The notes beneath the pieces are model-generated. The model saw only the letters and a program-made list of their open reading frames with translations, was not told the DNA's origin and ran no database searches. A stretch of DNA of 42,551 nt from Pseudomonadota bacterium (GTDB lineage Bacteria; Bdellovibrionota; UBA1018; CAIMNF01). Both the position numbers and the translations under genes were made by a program. The DNA lies in NCBI GenBank assembly GCA_027486675.1, contig JAIXOQ010000023.1:1-42551 (forward strand), given 5' to 3'. Below are positions 36,009 to 41,359 of the stretch, in pieces (position 1 is the first letter of the stretch; every line of letters starts with the position of its first letter).

Positions 36009-36100
36009 GGAGAGGTGCGTGAGTGGTTGAAACGGCACGCTTGGAAAGCGTGTGTAGGGGTCAAACCTTACCGGGGGTTCGAATCCCCCCTTCTCCGCCA
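36009..36100 (+). tRNA. tRNA-Ser (anticodon GGA)
   Basis: A type II tRNA of 92 bases. Acceptor GGAGAGG pairs with CTTCTCC (one G-T pair) before the discriminator and encoded CCA end (36098-36100). The anticodon loop is TTGGAAA between CACGC-type stem arms, giving GGA. The long variable arm and the TPsiC arm GGGGGTTCGAATCCCCC are clear. It sits 21 bases from the integrase gene and is the probable attachment site of the island to the right. Confidence 0.95.
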
Positions 36101-36120: not shown

Positions 36121-37254
36121 TCACTCAGCTTTTTTCTGACCCGACTCAAAACGGGCCATAAACGGGCTACCTCCATTCTTTTCTTCTGCGCTACGAGGCG
36201 CAAATTGAAGAATCGTCGCAGCCCGTTTCAAATGATCTTTGGTGAGATGGGCATAGATCATCGTGTCTTTAATCTCCGAATGCCCAAGCAACTTCTGAAG
36301 CTCGAAGATGTTCCCACCCTTCATCATGAAGTGACTGGCAAAGGTGTGGCGGATGTCATGGAAGCGAAGCCTCCGCACTCCAGCCGTGTCACACGCCTTG
36401 TAGAAGAGTCTCTGGCAGAAGTGGTCTGGGCAAATTGGGTTCCCGTCCTCATCTGTGAAGACATGGCGCCCCACCGATATTCGCTTCGCCTTTAATTCGC
36501 GAAAGAACTGAAGCAAAGCGCCACTCAAAGGAAAGATCCGAAACCGTCTGCCCTTTGTGTTCTCTTGCAACCTTCCCTTTGCATGTAGGGTGCGGCAAAT
36601 CATGATCTGCTCAGACCCGAAATCCACCTTGTCCCAGCAGAGCCCTAAGAGCTCCCCTAGCCTCATCCCAGTATTCACTCCGACGTGAATAATATTTCCC
36701 AAGGCGGTTCCCTCCGTTGCCTCAAGAAGGGTCTGAATTTCTTCCACTGTGTAGAAGTCCACAGGTCTCTCAGGATCTTTAAGCATCAACCCCTTCCTCC
36801 GCATCGGCTCCGTACGAAGGCCGATTTCCCATGCGTAGTCTATGACCTGTAGAAGCACGCCTAAGATGCGATTGATGGTGCCTGGACGCTTCCCTTTAGC
36901 AACGAGCTTTTCCACAAAGGAATCGAGAGTGCTGCGATCGATAAACTCGACGAATAAATCGCCAAGCATAGGATTCACGTGACAGTCGATCACGACGCGG
37001 TAAGTTTGTTCCGTCTTTTGGGCTTTCTGATTCTTGATGCGAACCGCGAACCACTGTTCAGCTACCTTCTTCAGAGGAGTCCGCTTCGCTTTACGAAGAC
37101 CAAGCTCACCCCGCTCCTTTGCGACTTCCTGTTCTCGCTTCCATTGCTCGGCAGATTTCGCAGTACGAAAGGTCCTCGTCTGCATTCGTCCACTCAGAAG
37201 ACGCACCTTCTCGCGGTAACGGATTTCTCCGTTTTCTAATTTTACTCTCTCCAT
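36121..37254 (-). CDS. int: Tyrosine recombinase / integrase
   Basis: A 377-residue phage-type integrase. The N-terminal arm-binding region (1-60) has a strand-rich, basic sequence, the core-binding domain spans about 65-165 and the catalytic domain about 170-350. The catalytic set is present: Arg198 (NTGMRLGELLGL), Lys near 234, His299-x-x-Arg302 (HDIRHTFASH), His325 (LLGHSEI) and nucleophile Tyr334 (MIYAHL). It likely integrates the element into the adjacent tRNA-Ser. It is transcribed toward the tRNA, leaving 21 bases between its end and the CCA. Confidence 0.93.
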   Translation of the reverse strand: MERVKLENGEIRYREKVRLLSGRMQTRTFRTAKSAEQWKREQEVAKERGELGLRKAKRTPLKKVAEQWFAVRIKNQKAQKTEQTYRVVIDCHVNPMLGDLFVEFIDRSTLDSFVEKLVAKGKRPGTINRILGVLLQVIDYAWEIGLRTEPMRRKGLMLKDPERPVDFYTVEEIQTLLEATEGTALGNIIHVGVNTGMRLGELLGLCWDKVDFGSEQIMICRTLHAKGRLQENTKGRRFRIFPLSGALLQFFRELKAKRISVGRHVFTDEDGNPICPDHFCQRLFYKACDTAGVRRLRFHDIRHTFASHFMMKGGNIFELQKLLGHSEIKDTMIYAHLTKDHLKRAATILQFAPRSAEEKNGGSPFMARFESGQKKAE

Positions 37255-37443: not shown

Positions 37444-38688
37444 TTAAAAAAGAGTCTGTTGCGGGGCGACTGCGTTATCGTCCCAAGCTTTGGGTGCTCG
37501 GACTGGTTGGAGGAGTCGAAGGATCTTGAAAGCTTCACGCAGGTCGTACTCGGCCGTGCCGTCGTAATTGACTTTCTCTGCGACGCCGAGCTTAACCAGA
37601 AGATCCAGTCGCTTTCTAACTGTGGCGTCGTCTTTATCCACTACGATCGAAACTTCCCTAACAGTCATCTTTGCTTCTGATTCGGTAAGGGCTCTGATTA
37701 CGCCGCGACGCAGAGGGGGTGCGCTGCCTATTGCAAGCTGCAGTGCGAGCCTTAGGTCGACATGACTGATCACTGTTCGCCCATCGGCCAATGCAGACCC
37801 CGTAACAATCTGTTCGAGGTACTTAAAGACCCGCTCTGGACTCTCGGGCTCATATTGCACGTCGCTACCATCACTCTCCTCGTCCCCTTCACTGCTCCCA
37901 ATTGCTCGGAAAAGCGTTAGTGCGACTGCAATTGTGTTCAGAATCTTCTTATTTTCGAGCGAGAGTTCGAAGCTCTGGCGTGGAACCGACCCTGGCTCAT
38001 GAAGTTTCATCAGTTCATCCACGAAATCGCTGAGCATATCTTCAGCTTGCCGCTGAAGCTGCTGCTGCTCGGGCGAGGATCCTTCCCATTTTAGTGGATC
38101 AATTTGGCGACCAAAAACCTCCCAAAAGCAAAAGCGCGGCCCGATGCCACCGAGGGACTTCCAAACATGTCCAGAGATGACATGTTTGGTAACTGCTCCA
38201 ATCAATGAAAAGACAATCGGTCTCGCGTATCCGCGCCTTCCATGGGACCCGCTACCGGAGATGTGGCCCATTCCATCAAGAACACTAGTTAGCACCGCAA
38301 ACTTTCGGATGAGTTCGTCTTCATGACCGGAAAAAAGCGGTGCCATTTCCTTCACGACCACTAATTTATTTTCGAACTGTGGCAAGAGGTCCTGATTTGC
38401 AAGATCCTTGGCATTTCGATTTGCCGCATGACTTACAAGGCTCGGCGCATTGAAGTCATCAATTCGGAAAACTTGATCTTTTAATGCCGACCCATCACCC
38501 CCTTTCGTCATCGGCATCAAGCACGTGGTTTTTCCACTGGAAGGCGGCCCGACCAGAATGACTGCAATGGGAAGGTCACGAACGAGACGAGTCGTCGCTG
38601 CTACAGCCACGACGAGCCTCGCAGTCTCTCTCAAACCGGAGTAAGCCTCGTCAAAGGTGTCTAGTACCTCAAACAGTGACTTTTTCAT
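37444..38688 (-). CDS. AAA-type ATPase with C-terminal winged helix, island-encoded
   Basis: A 414-residue protein. Walker A GPPSSGKT lies at residues 47-54. A Walker-B-like hydrophobic strand ending VKEMAPLF lies near 115-125 and an arginine near GPRFCFWEVFGR may act as a finger. The C-terminal part (REVSIVVDKDDATVRKRLDLLVKLGVAEKV) is a winged-helix DNA-binding domain. This combination is typical of replication or partition ATPases of plasmids, phages and satellites. It is the last gene of an ATGA-coupled operon on the minus strand. Replication initiation or helicase loading is a working hypothesis only. Confidence 0.65.
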   Translation of the reverse strand: MKKSLFEVLDTFDEAYSGLRETARLVVAVAATTRLVRDLPIAVILVGPPSSGKTTCLMPMTKGGDGSALKDQVFRIDDFNAPSLVSHAANRNAKDLANQDLLPQFENKLVVVKEMAPLFSGHEDELIRKFAVLTSVLDGMGHISGSGSHGRRGYARPIVFSLIGAVTKHVISGHVWKSLGGIGPRFCFWEVFGRQIDPLKWEGSSPEQQQLQRQAEDMLSDFVDELMKLHEPGSVPRQSFELSLENKKILNTIAVALTLFRAIGSSEGDEESDGSDVQYEPESPERVFKYLEQIVTGSALADGRTVISHVDLRLALQLAIGSAPPLRRGVIRALTESEAKMTVREVSIVVDKDDATVRKRLDLLVKLGVAEKVNYDGTAEYDLREAFKILRLLQPVRAPKAWDDNAVAPQQTLF

Positions 38689-38912
38689 ACGGCACCCTCA
38701 AAGAAGGTGTCGCCGCAGCGATCACATATTTGGGGCGAGACTGCACAGCAGCAATTGAAGCAGACAAGACCTTTATGGGAATAAAGCATGCGAGTGAATT
38801 TCTTCTCATCACATATCAGCTGTATTGCATCCTTGGGTGACCTTCCCAAGCCCATCAGGTTCTCTAGCGCCTCGCGGTCGGACTGTAGCCAGAGACGGCG
38901 CTGCCGAGTCAT
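38685..38912 (-). CDS. Cysteine-rich mini-protein of the island operon
   Basis: A 75-residue protein with CFNCCCAVSPQICDRCGDTFF near the C-terminus, a clustered cysteine pattern likely binding zinc, and an Arg-rich N-terminus (TRQRRLWLQSDREALENLMGLGRSPKDAIQLICD). Start ATG 38912 overlaps the upstream stop (ATGA at 38909-38912) and its own stop overlaps the ATPase start (ATGA at 38685-38688), so the three genes are translationally coupled. Its function is unknown; a partner of the ATPase is plausible. Confidence 0.6.
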   Translation of the reverse strand: MTRQRRLWLQSDREALENLMGLGRSPKDAIQLICDEKKFTRMLYSHKGLVCFNCCCAVSPQICDRCGDTFFEGAV

Positions 38913-39097
38913 TGGTGTTCCCCCCCGCTGGTATTTGCCGAAATCCATGCTTCAATCTCACCGCGCCGAAATCTTACGGACCGCCCAAGCTTTATAAATG
39001 GCATCCGTTTTCTGAAAACTTCGTACCGCACTCGGCTAACTGAGAGAGAGAAAATCTCAGCCACCTCTTTGATGGTTAACAATCGACTATCAGACAT
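38909..39097 (-). CDS. AlpA-like HTH regulator (excisionase-type)
   Basis: A 62-residue protein from ATG 39097, with AGAGG about seven bases upstream on the minus strand. LLTIKEVAEIFSLSVSRVRYEVFRKRMPFIKLGRSVRFRRGEIEAWI is a MerR/AlpA-type helix-turn-helix (HTH_17), typical of excisionases and island regulators. It begins the ATGA-coupled operon. The start at 39121 would add eight residues. The 19-base palindrome lies 25 bases upstream. Confidence 0.75.
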   Translation of the reverse strand: MSDSRLLTIKEVAEIFSLSVSRVRYEVFRKRMPFIKLGRSVRFRRGEIEAWISANTSGGEHQ

Positions 39098-39121
39098 GCT
39101 CGACCTCTTTCCATTCCGCAC

Positions 39122-39140
39122 AGCATCGATTATCGATGCT
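39122..39140. promoter_or_regulatory. 19-bp operator palindrome between divergent island genes
   Basis: AGCATCGAT and ATCGATGCT are perfect nine-base arms with a single T between them. It sits between the HTH gene (start 39097, minus) and the unknown gene (start 39159, plus), 24 and 18 bases from their starts. This is a classic position for an operator controlling both directions; the binder is not known. Confidence 0.65.
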
Positions 39141-39158: not shown

Positions 39159-39935
39159 ATGACTGAGAGGGTGTGCCGGTCTCAAATCATAAAGTCGGCC
39201 CTGGGGGACAAAATGAGGCTGGATAATGACAAGCTTTGGCAGAAGGTTTTGAAAATTCTTGAAGTCGCATATTACTGCGAGCTTGCAACGGACCCATTAT
39301 TCGAGAGCTGGTTTCCTGACCTTGATAAGGAGGGCTTACGAAAACGTAGGCAGAGCTTGATGGCATTTAATACGCAATTGCCGGAAAAAAAGGTGAAGCT
39401 TATACCCGAGGATTTCCTCCTCTACGAGGAAATCTTCAAACGCCTTTTTTCGTACTACCGTGGATTGCAAGAGCAGAGAATCGGCCTCACAGACCAACTC
39501 TCTTCTTTAACTAAGGTGTTTCCAGGCTTGCATTCAGCCAAGCTTCAGCAATATGTAGTCAAAGACATTTCGGAAATTTCTGCGACAGGGAACGGGACGA
39601 GTTCAAAGGGCGGAGCTAAAGAATTCGCAAGAATGAAGGCTGCGAATTCAATTGGATATCGAACTGCATCTAGCGTACGAAGGGCAGCAAAGCGGGCAGG
39701 ATTCACGTTAGAAAAGCATGGATTTGGTGAGCGCAATGATCTTCTTATTTATAGAATGCTATTCAACCACGGACGACTCGAAAACATGATTAAAAAAGGA
39801 GAGATAGTCCAACATGAGGCATTCTCGGAATGGAATAGCACAAAGGAGAAAGCAGAATCCATTAAGAAAAACATACACGACGCAATCGCGAGCAGTCTGT
39901 CGAAACAACGTATGCGTGAACAAAGGGAATGCTAA
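39159..39935 (+). CDS. Island-encoded protein of unknown function
   Basis: A 258-residue protein without signal or membrane segment. The N-terminus (LWQKVLKILEVAYYCELATDPLF) is helical. A central PEKKVKLIPEDFLLYEEIFKRLFSYYRGLQEQ and a C-terminal basic region (YRTASSVRRAAKRAGFTLEKHGFGER, then a coiled AHD-like segment KEKAESIKKNIHDAIASSLSKQRMREQ) follow. No family is recognised; the basic C-terminal half could bind nucleic acid. It is divergent from the HTH operon across the palindrome, so probably controlled with it. An internal ATG at 39213 is a possible alternative start. Confidence 0.6.
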   Translation: MTERVCRSQIIKSALGDKMRLDNDKLWQKVLKILEVAYYCELATDPLFESWFPDLDKEGLRKRRQSLMAFNTQLPEKKVKLIPEDFLLYEEIFKRLFSYYRGLQEQRIGLTDQLSSLTKVFPGLHSAKLQQYVVKDISEISATGNGTSSKGGAKEFARMKAANSIGYRTASSVRRAAKRAGFTLEKHGFGERNDLLIYRMLFNHGRLENMIKKGEIVQHEAFSEWNSTKEKAESIKKNIHDAIASSLSKQRMREQREC

Positions 39936-40032: not shown

Positions 40033-40533
40033 TTAAAAATCGGGCCAATTCGACAACTTTCTCCTCCGCTGCATCTCCTGCAGTTGCTCAGTGATCTTCT
40101 CTAGCGTGCGCTCGATGTTGCTCTCATATCGCGCAAGGCTTGCCATAGTAATAGGGCGATACTCAAATGCATCCGCATGCGATCCGAAAAACGTTCCAGC
40201 GTAGTTTCCAGCCTCTGCGCTATAGACGCGGTGAAGTCTCCACTGGAGGATGATGATCTTTTCGACCAGTAGTGTTTCGAAATTGCCGACTGGAGCCATT
40301 GCCTCAGAAACCATTTTAGAAAACTCATGAAAGGTCGTTTCATCCTCGAAGGGAAGAATTCGAAACTGACTTAAGATCCCGTGCTTAAGACTATTTCCAG
40401 CACTAGCCTGCTTCCCTTCGTCAGTGGTCGGGCCAGTGCTCTTTAGTGCGTTTGTGCGATTCGCTTCGATTTGTTTCTGAGTGGCCAAGAATCCTCCTTC
40501 GGCTCCCGTTAATCCTTCTGTTTCTCGTTCCAT
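40033..40533 (-). CDS. Accessory protein with IEANRTNALKSTGP motif
   Basis: About 166 residues from ATG 40533. The N-terminal segment QKQIEANRTNALKSTGPTTDEGKQASAGNSLKHGI matches a family of short unknown proteins that often sits in accessory DNA. The rest is helical (RITLARYESNIERTLEKITEQLQEMQRRRK type end; in this copy ASLARYESNIERTLEKI). An alternative ATG at 40581 has a better ribosome site but adds a region overlapping the RHH gene. It is co-oriented with that gene and overlaps it. Confidence 0.55.
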   Translation of the reverse strand: MERETEGLTGAEGGFLATQKQIEANRTNALKSTGPTTDEGKQASAGNSLKHGILSQFRILPFEDETTFHEFSKMVSEAMAPVGNFETLLVEKIIILQWRLHRVYSAEAGNYAGTFFGSHADAFEYRPITMASLARYESNIERTLEKITEQLQEMQRRRKLSNWPDF

Positions 40534-40697
40534 TGTAAGTACTGATCGAGGACAGTGATCACAAGATCGGTCATCGGCCACCCTCGCTCGGTCGAAACCT
40601 TCTTAAGCTCCTCTAAGAGCGACTCCGGCAGCCTAAAAGAAATTAGCTTCTTATCCCCATCGCTATAGACCCGCTTCGGGATATTGAACTTCGTCAT
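40509..40697 (-). CDS. Ribbon-helix-helix DNA-binding protein
   Basis: A 62-residue protein. KKLISFRLPESLLEELKKVSTERGWPMTDLVITVLDQYLQW is a CopG/Arc-type ribbon-helix-helix: a beta strand followed by two helices. Such proteins act as repressors in plasmid copy control, partition or toxin-antitoxin systems. No toxin-like partner is visible. It is divergent from the serine recombinase across 80 bases full of inverted repeats to which it may bind. Confidence 0.75.
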   Translation of the reverse strand: MTKFNIPKRVYSDGDKKLISFRLPESLLEELKKVSTERGWPMTDLVITVLDQYLQWNEKQKD

Positions 40698-40777: not shown

Positions 40778-41359
40778 ATGAGTGAATCTAAGAGAGTCGC
40801 CGTGTATGTCCGAGTATCAACACAAGAACAGTCCTGCGACCTCCAAAAGAGCGAAATTCTAACCTTCATCGAGCTTAAGGGCTGGACCCTGGCCCGTATC
40901 TACGAAGACAAGGCCACGGGGACCAACGCTAACCGGCCCATGCTTAAAGCGATGCTAGAGGACGCTAAACAGGGTCAATTCGACCTTATTGTGTCCTGGA
41001 AGCTCGATCGCCTCTTTCGAAGCCTCAAAGACCTGATCCTTACCCTTCATGAGCTTTCCGCTTATGGGATCGAGTTCGTAGCCATTAAAGACAACATTGA
41101 CCTCACCACAAGCGCGGGGCGCCTCATGATGCACCTGCTAGGCGCGTTCGCAGAGTTCGAGGGCAGCTTAATTAGAGCCAGAGTTAAGGCGGGCTTAGAC
41201 AATGCCAGGGCAAAGGGCACAACCCTTGGGCGTCCTGTGAAGGTTCACCCTAGCCGGATGATTGCATTGCGCGGTCAAGGACTCTCGCTTTCTGAAATTG
41301 GAAGAGAGCTTGGAGTTTCCAAGGGGACCGTTTCGAAAACCCTCCAGAAGGTGACCTAA
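40778..41359 (+). CDS. Serine recombinase (resolvase/invertase)
   Basis: A 193-residue small serine recombinase. The catalytic domain begins VAVYVRVSTQEQ with nucleophile Ser14, then DLIVSWKLDRLFRSLKDLI, and the region LMMHLLGAFAEFEGSLIRARVKAGLDNARAKG leads to a helix-turn-helix (LSLSEIGRELGVSKGTVSKTL). It has the length of Tn3-type resolvases. The start lies directly beside the nested inverted repeats, which suggests site-specific resolution at that res-like region, as in plasmid multimer resolution or Tn3-like elements. No Shine-Dalgarno precedes the ATG. Confidence 0.92.
   Translation: MSESKRVAVYVRVSTQEQSCDLQKSEILTFIELKGWTLARIYEDKATGTNANRPMLKAMLEDAKQGQFDLIVSWKLDRLFRSLKDLILTLHELSAYGIEFVAIKDNIDLTTSAGRLMMHLLGAFAEFEGSLIRARVKAGLDNARAKGTTLGRPVKVHPSRMIALRGQGLSLSEIGRELGVSKGTVSKTLQKVT

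Follow-up and report, generated by a model that had tools for sequence, protein, structure and literature searches.

PICMI satellites of the Vibrionaceae possess an early regulon composed of alpA, a small uncharacterised gene and a replication gene, in which excision is triggered by AlpA and the primase is required for replication (PMC10803314). An E. coli PICI has an AlpA that activates its own expression and brings about excision as well as replication (PMC6092414). A single search of an open literature library gave no report of satellites in Bdellovibrio. The phylum Bdellovibrionota is known for predators of other bacteria.

The stretch of DNA analysed here (the window; 42,551 nt, the entire contig C18 of its genome) harbours three coupled genes which quite probably represent the early operon of a small integrative element located in a tRNA-Ser(GGA) gene, most likely a phage satellite. 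Apparently a small DNA parasite that resides in a serine tRNA gene of its uncultured, Bdellovibrio-like host, the element probably travels in phage particles and would, by analogy, work like the PICMI and PICI satellites. It resembles PICMI in its small size, integrase and AlpA-type regulator (the PICMI model accepts PF12728, the family of the regulator encoded in the window), in a small gene between the alpA-type and the replication gene as in the early alpA-up1-prim unit, and in possessing ATGA overlaps, which in PICMI are found between int and its neighbour (PMC10803314). In contrast to PICMI, its replication gene codes for no DUF3987/DUF5906 primase, its site is tRNA-Ser rather than fis, its integrase gene follows downstream of the operon with the same orientation, its host belongs to another phylum and its relatives carry TerS-type genes; lacking DUF3987/DUF5906 and the fis site, the element is not a PICMI. 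Gram-negative PICIs (EcCICFT073) share the AlpA-type regulator (self-activating in PICI), an integrase, a replication gene, the lack of recognised structural genes and, in some, terS (PMC6092414). PICIs further possess a divergent regulator pair and a replication module (pri/rep); the window contains a divergent gene and a replication-like ATPase gene. The element has, however, no primase-Rep homologue, and the evidence at hand does not suffice to class it as a PICI.

Integration site and related elements

The integration target is a tRNA-Ser (GGA) gene on the plus strand (36009–36100, detected by ARAGORN), to the left of which ordinary chromosome (genes for photolyase, pyrophosphatase, Obg and MurJ) is located. 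By analogy with the complete element described below, the 58-nt 3' part of this gene (about 36043–36100) is the presumed att core. A tyrosine integrase gene on the minus strand (36121–37254; PF00589, E 7.6e-29; phrog_1, E 3.2e-67) reads toward the tRNA gene, which is the classical left end of a tRNA-integrated element. Beyond the operon, a divergent gene on the plus strand (39159–39935) codes for a 258-amino-acid candidate regulator without family match in profile searches. A weak match to this protein in genome G045 lies opposite a chromosomal gene among GC-rich frames and was taken as spurious. Further genes comprise one for a ribbon-helix-helix (RHH) protein on the minus strand (40509–40697; phrog_582) and one for a small serine recombinase of the resolvase/invertase type on the plus strand (40778–41359; PF00239, E 2.7e-42). 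The latter has a 41 % identical counterpart in G060 (L005 12147–12728), also downstream of the divergent gene, both possibly acting as resolvase or cargo-inverting switch.

Three relatives, designated G012, G039 and G060, were compared. G012, an Oligoflexia MAG contig (CAIOKW010000242.1), contains tRNA-Ser(UGA) and genes for integrase (43 % identical), ATPase, mini-protein and HTH protein (50 %) in the same order as in the window. The element of G039 is complete, spanning 7.87 kb between two 58-nt direct repeats of the tRNA-Ser(GGA) 3' part (L030 5238–5295 and 13109–13166). It comprises an integrase gene, a divergent gene and an HTH–mini-protein–ATPase series joined by exact ATGA overlaps at both junctions; the product of the divergent gene is weakly similar to that of the window (2 of 500 shuffles). 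Between the two att copies, a compensatory G-C to C-G change affects two positions paired in the T stem; the element thus brought along an intact tRNA 3' half of its own.

In G039, the ATPase slot is occupied by an unrelated plasmid/phage-type helicase. Its matches are plasmid proteins of Methylobacterium, Methanothrix, Stanieria and Streptomyces as well as a protein of Microbacterium phage Zeta1847 annotated as DNA helicase/primase (28 plasmid records vs. 2 records of this one phage), and one Streptomyces plasmid copy adjoins a primase-polymerase gene. This helicase family (Zeta1847 gene 37; Streptomyces and Methylobacterium plasmids) resembles the ATPase of the window in being a replication-associated P-loop ATPase and in having its gene in the same position, immediately behind that of the zinc mini-protein, whereas a sequence relation between the two is undetectable past the P-loop. 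An RHH gene in G039, homologous to that of the window (z = 10.6), is followed by a 158-amino-acid gene of small-terminase type. A relative of this gene lies directly before, and overlaps, terL in Psychrobacter phage pOW20-A, and a similar stretch occurs within the terL annotation of Bdellovibrio phage phi1402; judged by these similarities, the gene is of small-terminase type, yet no phage surrounds it. G060 combines tRNA-Asn with genes for a large serine recombinase, the ATPase, an XRE-like HTH protein and a divergent protein, lacks the mini-protein and encodes, in addition to the small serine recombinase, a lone Sf6-type small terminase (TerS).

In the window, the slot of the TerS-type gene downstream of RHH is held, by position only, by a gene for an uncharacterised protein on the minus strand (40033–40581), for which similarity gave no support as TerS. 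The RHH gene overlaps this next gene (40033–40697 in total), which contains QIEANRTNALKSTGPTTDEGKQASAGNSLKHGI. No TerS was recognised in the window's element up to the contig end at 42551. Likewise, neither the remainder of the window nor, for a 24-nt core with at most two mismatches, the assembly yielded a second copy of the tRNA 3' end; hence the right end (attR) is missing. Both went unfound because the contig ends first, and for the same reason the phage-satellite status of the window's own copy is one that we infer. The contig end lies 6.4 kb past the tRNA gene, near the 7.9-kb size of the complete G039 element; possibly the assembly was interrupted at the right att repeat.

Genes of the operon

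The operon is located on the minus strand (39097 to 37444) and consists of genes for an HTH protein, a cysteine-rich mini-protein and an ATPase in series, each joined to the next by a 4-nt ATGA overlap. As already described in the first-pass annotation, both junctions are exact, with the HTH stop overlapping the mini-protein start (38909–38912) and the mini-protein stop overlapping the ATPase start (38685–38688). ATGA overlaps on their own are commonplace in bacterial operons; their weight lies in recurrence in the relatives, where the junctions are ATGA and ATGAATGA (G012) or ATGA twice (G039).

The 62-amino-acid HTH protein (38909–39097, minus strand) is a predicted DNA-binding protein of the HTH_17/excisionase type (AlpA-like). 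In profile searches it scored above both curated cut-offs of the excisionase/AlpA HTH family (PF12728 HTH_17, 43.4 bits, cut-off 27; TIGR01764, 40.1 bits, cut-off 28.8) and also matched phrog_66, while remaining below that of AlpA proper (PF05930, 15.4 bits, cut-off 21). Translation probably starts at ATG 39097 rather than at GTG 39121, since a Shine-Dalgarno-like AGAGGT is located just 5' of the former.

The mini-protein (75 amino acids; 38685–38912, minus strand) possesses a zinc-ribbon-like CxxC-x8-CxxCG motif, the four cysteines of which are invariant in the alignment of three homologues, and these homologues yield weak double-zinc-ribbon matches. Its predicted start is ATG 38912 and not 38948; the resulting 75 amino acids equal the length of the G012 homologue. 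Among 369 genomes of the phylum, the mini-protein was clear in three (window, G012 and G039); its profile retrieved G039 as one further clear genome (E 1.1e-12) along with three matches no better than chance. It was absent from the IMG/VR search, two motif-pattern matches there being other genes (cyanophage reductase-like and tail-like), and its predicted fold (pLDDT 64) gave no significant structural match.

The ATPase (414 amino acids; 37444–38688, minus strand), presumably a replication helicase or initiator, appears from alignment and weak profile matches to combine a P-loop/AAA+-like core with a C-terminal winged helix. An invariant P-loop core (S, K, T, T) is common to the three aligned homologues (window, G012 and G060), as are a beta-strand with KE behind it, GxHGxRGY, GAxT and GxRxxF; these motifs run in AAA+ order, with K53, T54, E114 and R185 invariant and likewise in the expected AAA+ order. 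The best PDB profile match, a weak one, was RFC2 (E 0.009) with the Walker A and B region aligned, and the C-terminal part resembles a winged helix by sequence (HTH_20, E 0.0046, weak). AlphaFold prediction from three sequences reached a pLDDT of 45 with an unusable AAA region, and Foldseek on this poor model supported the C-terminal winged helix alone. No match to the DUF3987, DUF5906 or Pri-Rep families was obtained in profile searches, nor was a primase gene recognised in the window's element. The ATPase gene contains a perfect inverted repeat of 11 bp around a 7-nt loop (38161–38189).

An MCM helicase, suggested by eye from the motif order, was rejected: PF00493 was not matched, pairwise scores against the MCM of genome G088 remained at shuffle level and hhalign aligned the P-loop only. 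MCM helicases are unusual in a bacterium. The strong match in G088 (L012 1501–2169; PF00493, E 2.9e-89; 686-amino-acid open frame on a small contig) may belong to another mobile element or stem from contamination.

The search for the ATPase, covering 192 relatives and then 369 genomes of the phylum, revealed it in three genomes only (window; G012, 48 % identity; G060, 34 % identity), and genome contigs, IMG/VR, phages and plasmids yielded no homologue beyond G012. Judged by these searches, the putative copying protein of the element belongs to a family with no described relative found, and because the family is absent from the phages, plasmids and IMG/VR searched, the phage link is not seen directly.

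Across the relatives, gene position, coupling and the place of a palindrome are conserved. Of the linkage expected by the first-pass annotation, the coupling of HTH protein and mini-protein and the order of HTH protein and ATPase are both kept, though G060 is devoid of the mini-protein. The fixed ratio of the three products that had been deduced from their tight coupling is not supported: since the mini-protein is missing from G060 and its family sits with an unrelated ATPase in G039, mini-protein and ATPase form no obligate pair.

A palindrome upstream of the operon

The 61-bp intergenic gap contains a perfect 19-bp palindrome with arms of nine (AGCATCGAT-T-ATCGATGCT; 39122–39140), confirming the earlier observation. 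Its centre is located 34 nt upstream of the HTH ATG; with this start at 39097, the palindrome stands upstream of the gene and not, as formerly described, beside its start codon. Arms of at least nine occurred in 4 of 2000 dinucleotide shuffles of the gap, and the palindrome is unique in the 2.70-Mb genome, even with up to 3 mismatches.

Palindromes with arms of 7 are present in G012 and G039, their centres being located 33 and 33.5 nt, respectively, upstream of the HTH start codon; when one mismatch is allowed, that of G012 extends to 19 bp (9+1+9) as in the window. Shuffled intergenic DNA contained a palindrome at the same offset in 24 of 20000 (G012) and 58 of 20000 cases (G039), frequencies that are optimistic because the arm limits were picked after the palindromes had been seen. 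Even so, chance is a poor explanation for three offsets that agree to within 1 nt. Thus, the palindrome expected at the same position in relatives is indeed found there, but the sequences differ among all three. At 33.5 nt in G060, the HTH protein of which is unrelated, there is just an 8-bp TGCATGCA; taken alone, this is weak (242 of 5000 shuffles).

Given that its centre precedes the HTH start by 33–34 nt in all three elements (window, G012, G039), the palindrome is very likely the operator of the three-gene operon, with the HTH protein as its presumed ligand. It had been regarded as shared with the divergent gene, which is doubtful: the window and G039 differ in the distance to the start of that gene (about 28 and about 85 nt, respectively), while that to the HTH start is constant, and the palindrome therefore belongs to the operon's own promoter region. 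The same distances bear on a variant of regulation, somewhat less probable but to be taken seriously, in which the product of the divergent gene, as an Stl/CI-like repressor, binds the palindrome instead of the HTH protein. The palindrome does lie between divergent genes in both window and G039 and varies in sequence between elements like immunity operators; the divergent protein, however, belongs to no recognised DNA-binding family, and the offset is fixed relative to the HTH gene. This variant is otherwise compatible with an early operon of a satellite.

Proposed function and alternative explanations

On the most plausible reading, the HTH protein is an AlpA-type regulator/excisionase, the mini-protein a zinc-ribbon adaptor and the ATPase a replication protein of AAA+-like/winged-helix type. 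The proposal of a regulated replication or mobilization module is well supported, the cassette being located in elements with integrase and tRNA site and the ATPase slot of G039 holding a replication-type helicase. As to the palindrome-binding protein, excision, replication and helper dependence, we infer the following course. As long as the element is integrated, the promoter at the 19-bp palindrome would be kept in check until a trigger, probably a helper phage, leads to synthesis of the AlpA/HTH_17-type protein. This protein would act at its own operator and, as directionality factor, allow the tyrosine integrase to excise the element. The AAA+-like/winged-helix ATPase may then start or drive replication of the excised circle, with the zinc-ribbon mini-protein serving as putative adaptor to DNA or replisome, and the overlapping stop and start codons would ensure co-expression of the three genes.

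The strongest competing explanation, though an unlikely one, is a small integrative element other than a satellite, i.e. an integrated plasmid-like or mobilisable element with the ATPase as plasmid Rep/helicase, spread by conjugation or natural uptake. It would account for the predominance of plasmid records among the matches of the G039 helicase and for TerS not being found in the window's own element. On the other hand, no relaxase was matched among the element proteins scanned, and the lone small-terminase-type genes of G039 and G060, as recognised by similarity, point to phage satellites and favour these over an integrated plasmid.

Considerably less probable is a defence or abortive-infection cassette composed of an ATPase effector and a zinc accessory protein under HTH control. 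Integrative elements are frequent carriers of defence genes, and weak matches connect the HTH protein with MAD1 of MADS (NF047737, 35.1 bits, rejected at a cut-off of 80) and the ATPase with mad8 (E 0.03). These defence-library matches are, however, no better than chance, the operon stays constant among the elements and their cargo varies, and the slot in G039 is occupied by a replication-type helicase. Finally, an ATPase of the TnsC/IstB/TniB kind, regulating transposition or integration as partner of the element recombinases, is hardly credible despite the adjoining integrase and the serine recombinase nearby in window and G060, since the ATPase accompanies a tyrosine integrase in two elements and a large serine recombinase in a third, enzymes that to our knowledge do not need such an ATPase, and since a helicase takes its place in G039.

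Starting from the early operon of a phage satellite, we tentatively suggest, as a possibility well short of the foregoing, that the ATPase (AAA+-like core and winged helix, no recognisable primase) founds a new satellite replication family in undescribed satellites of the Bdellovibrionota, working via a zinc-ribbon adaptor that is kept while the motor is swapped. The element family displays a modular replication slot, in which regulator type, palindrome position and zinc protein are kept and the ATPase family is exchanged; the role of the small gene between alpA and the replication gene in PICMI-type satellites thereby becomes directly testable. If the elements are indeed satellites, this Bdellovibrio-like lineage would have hyperparasites of its phages.
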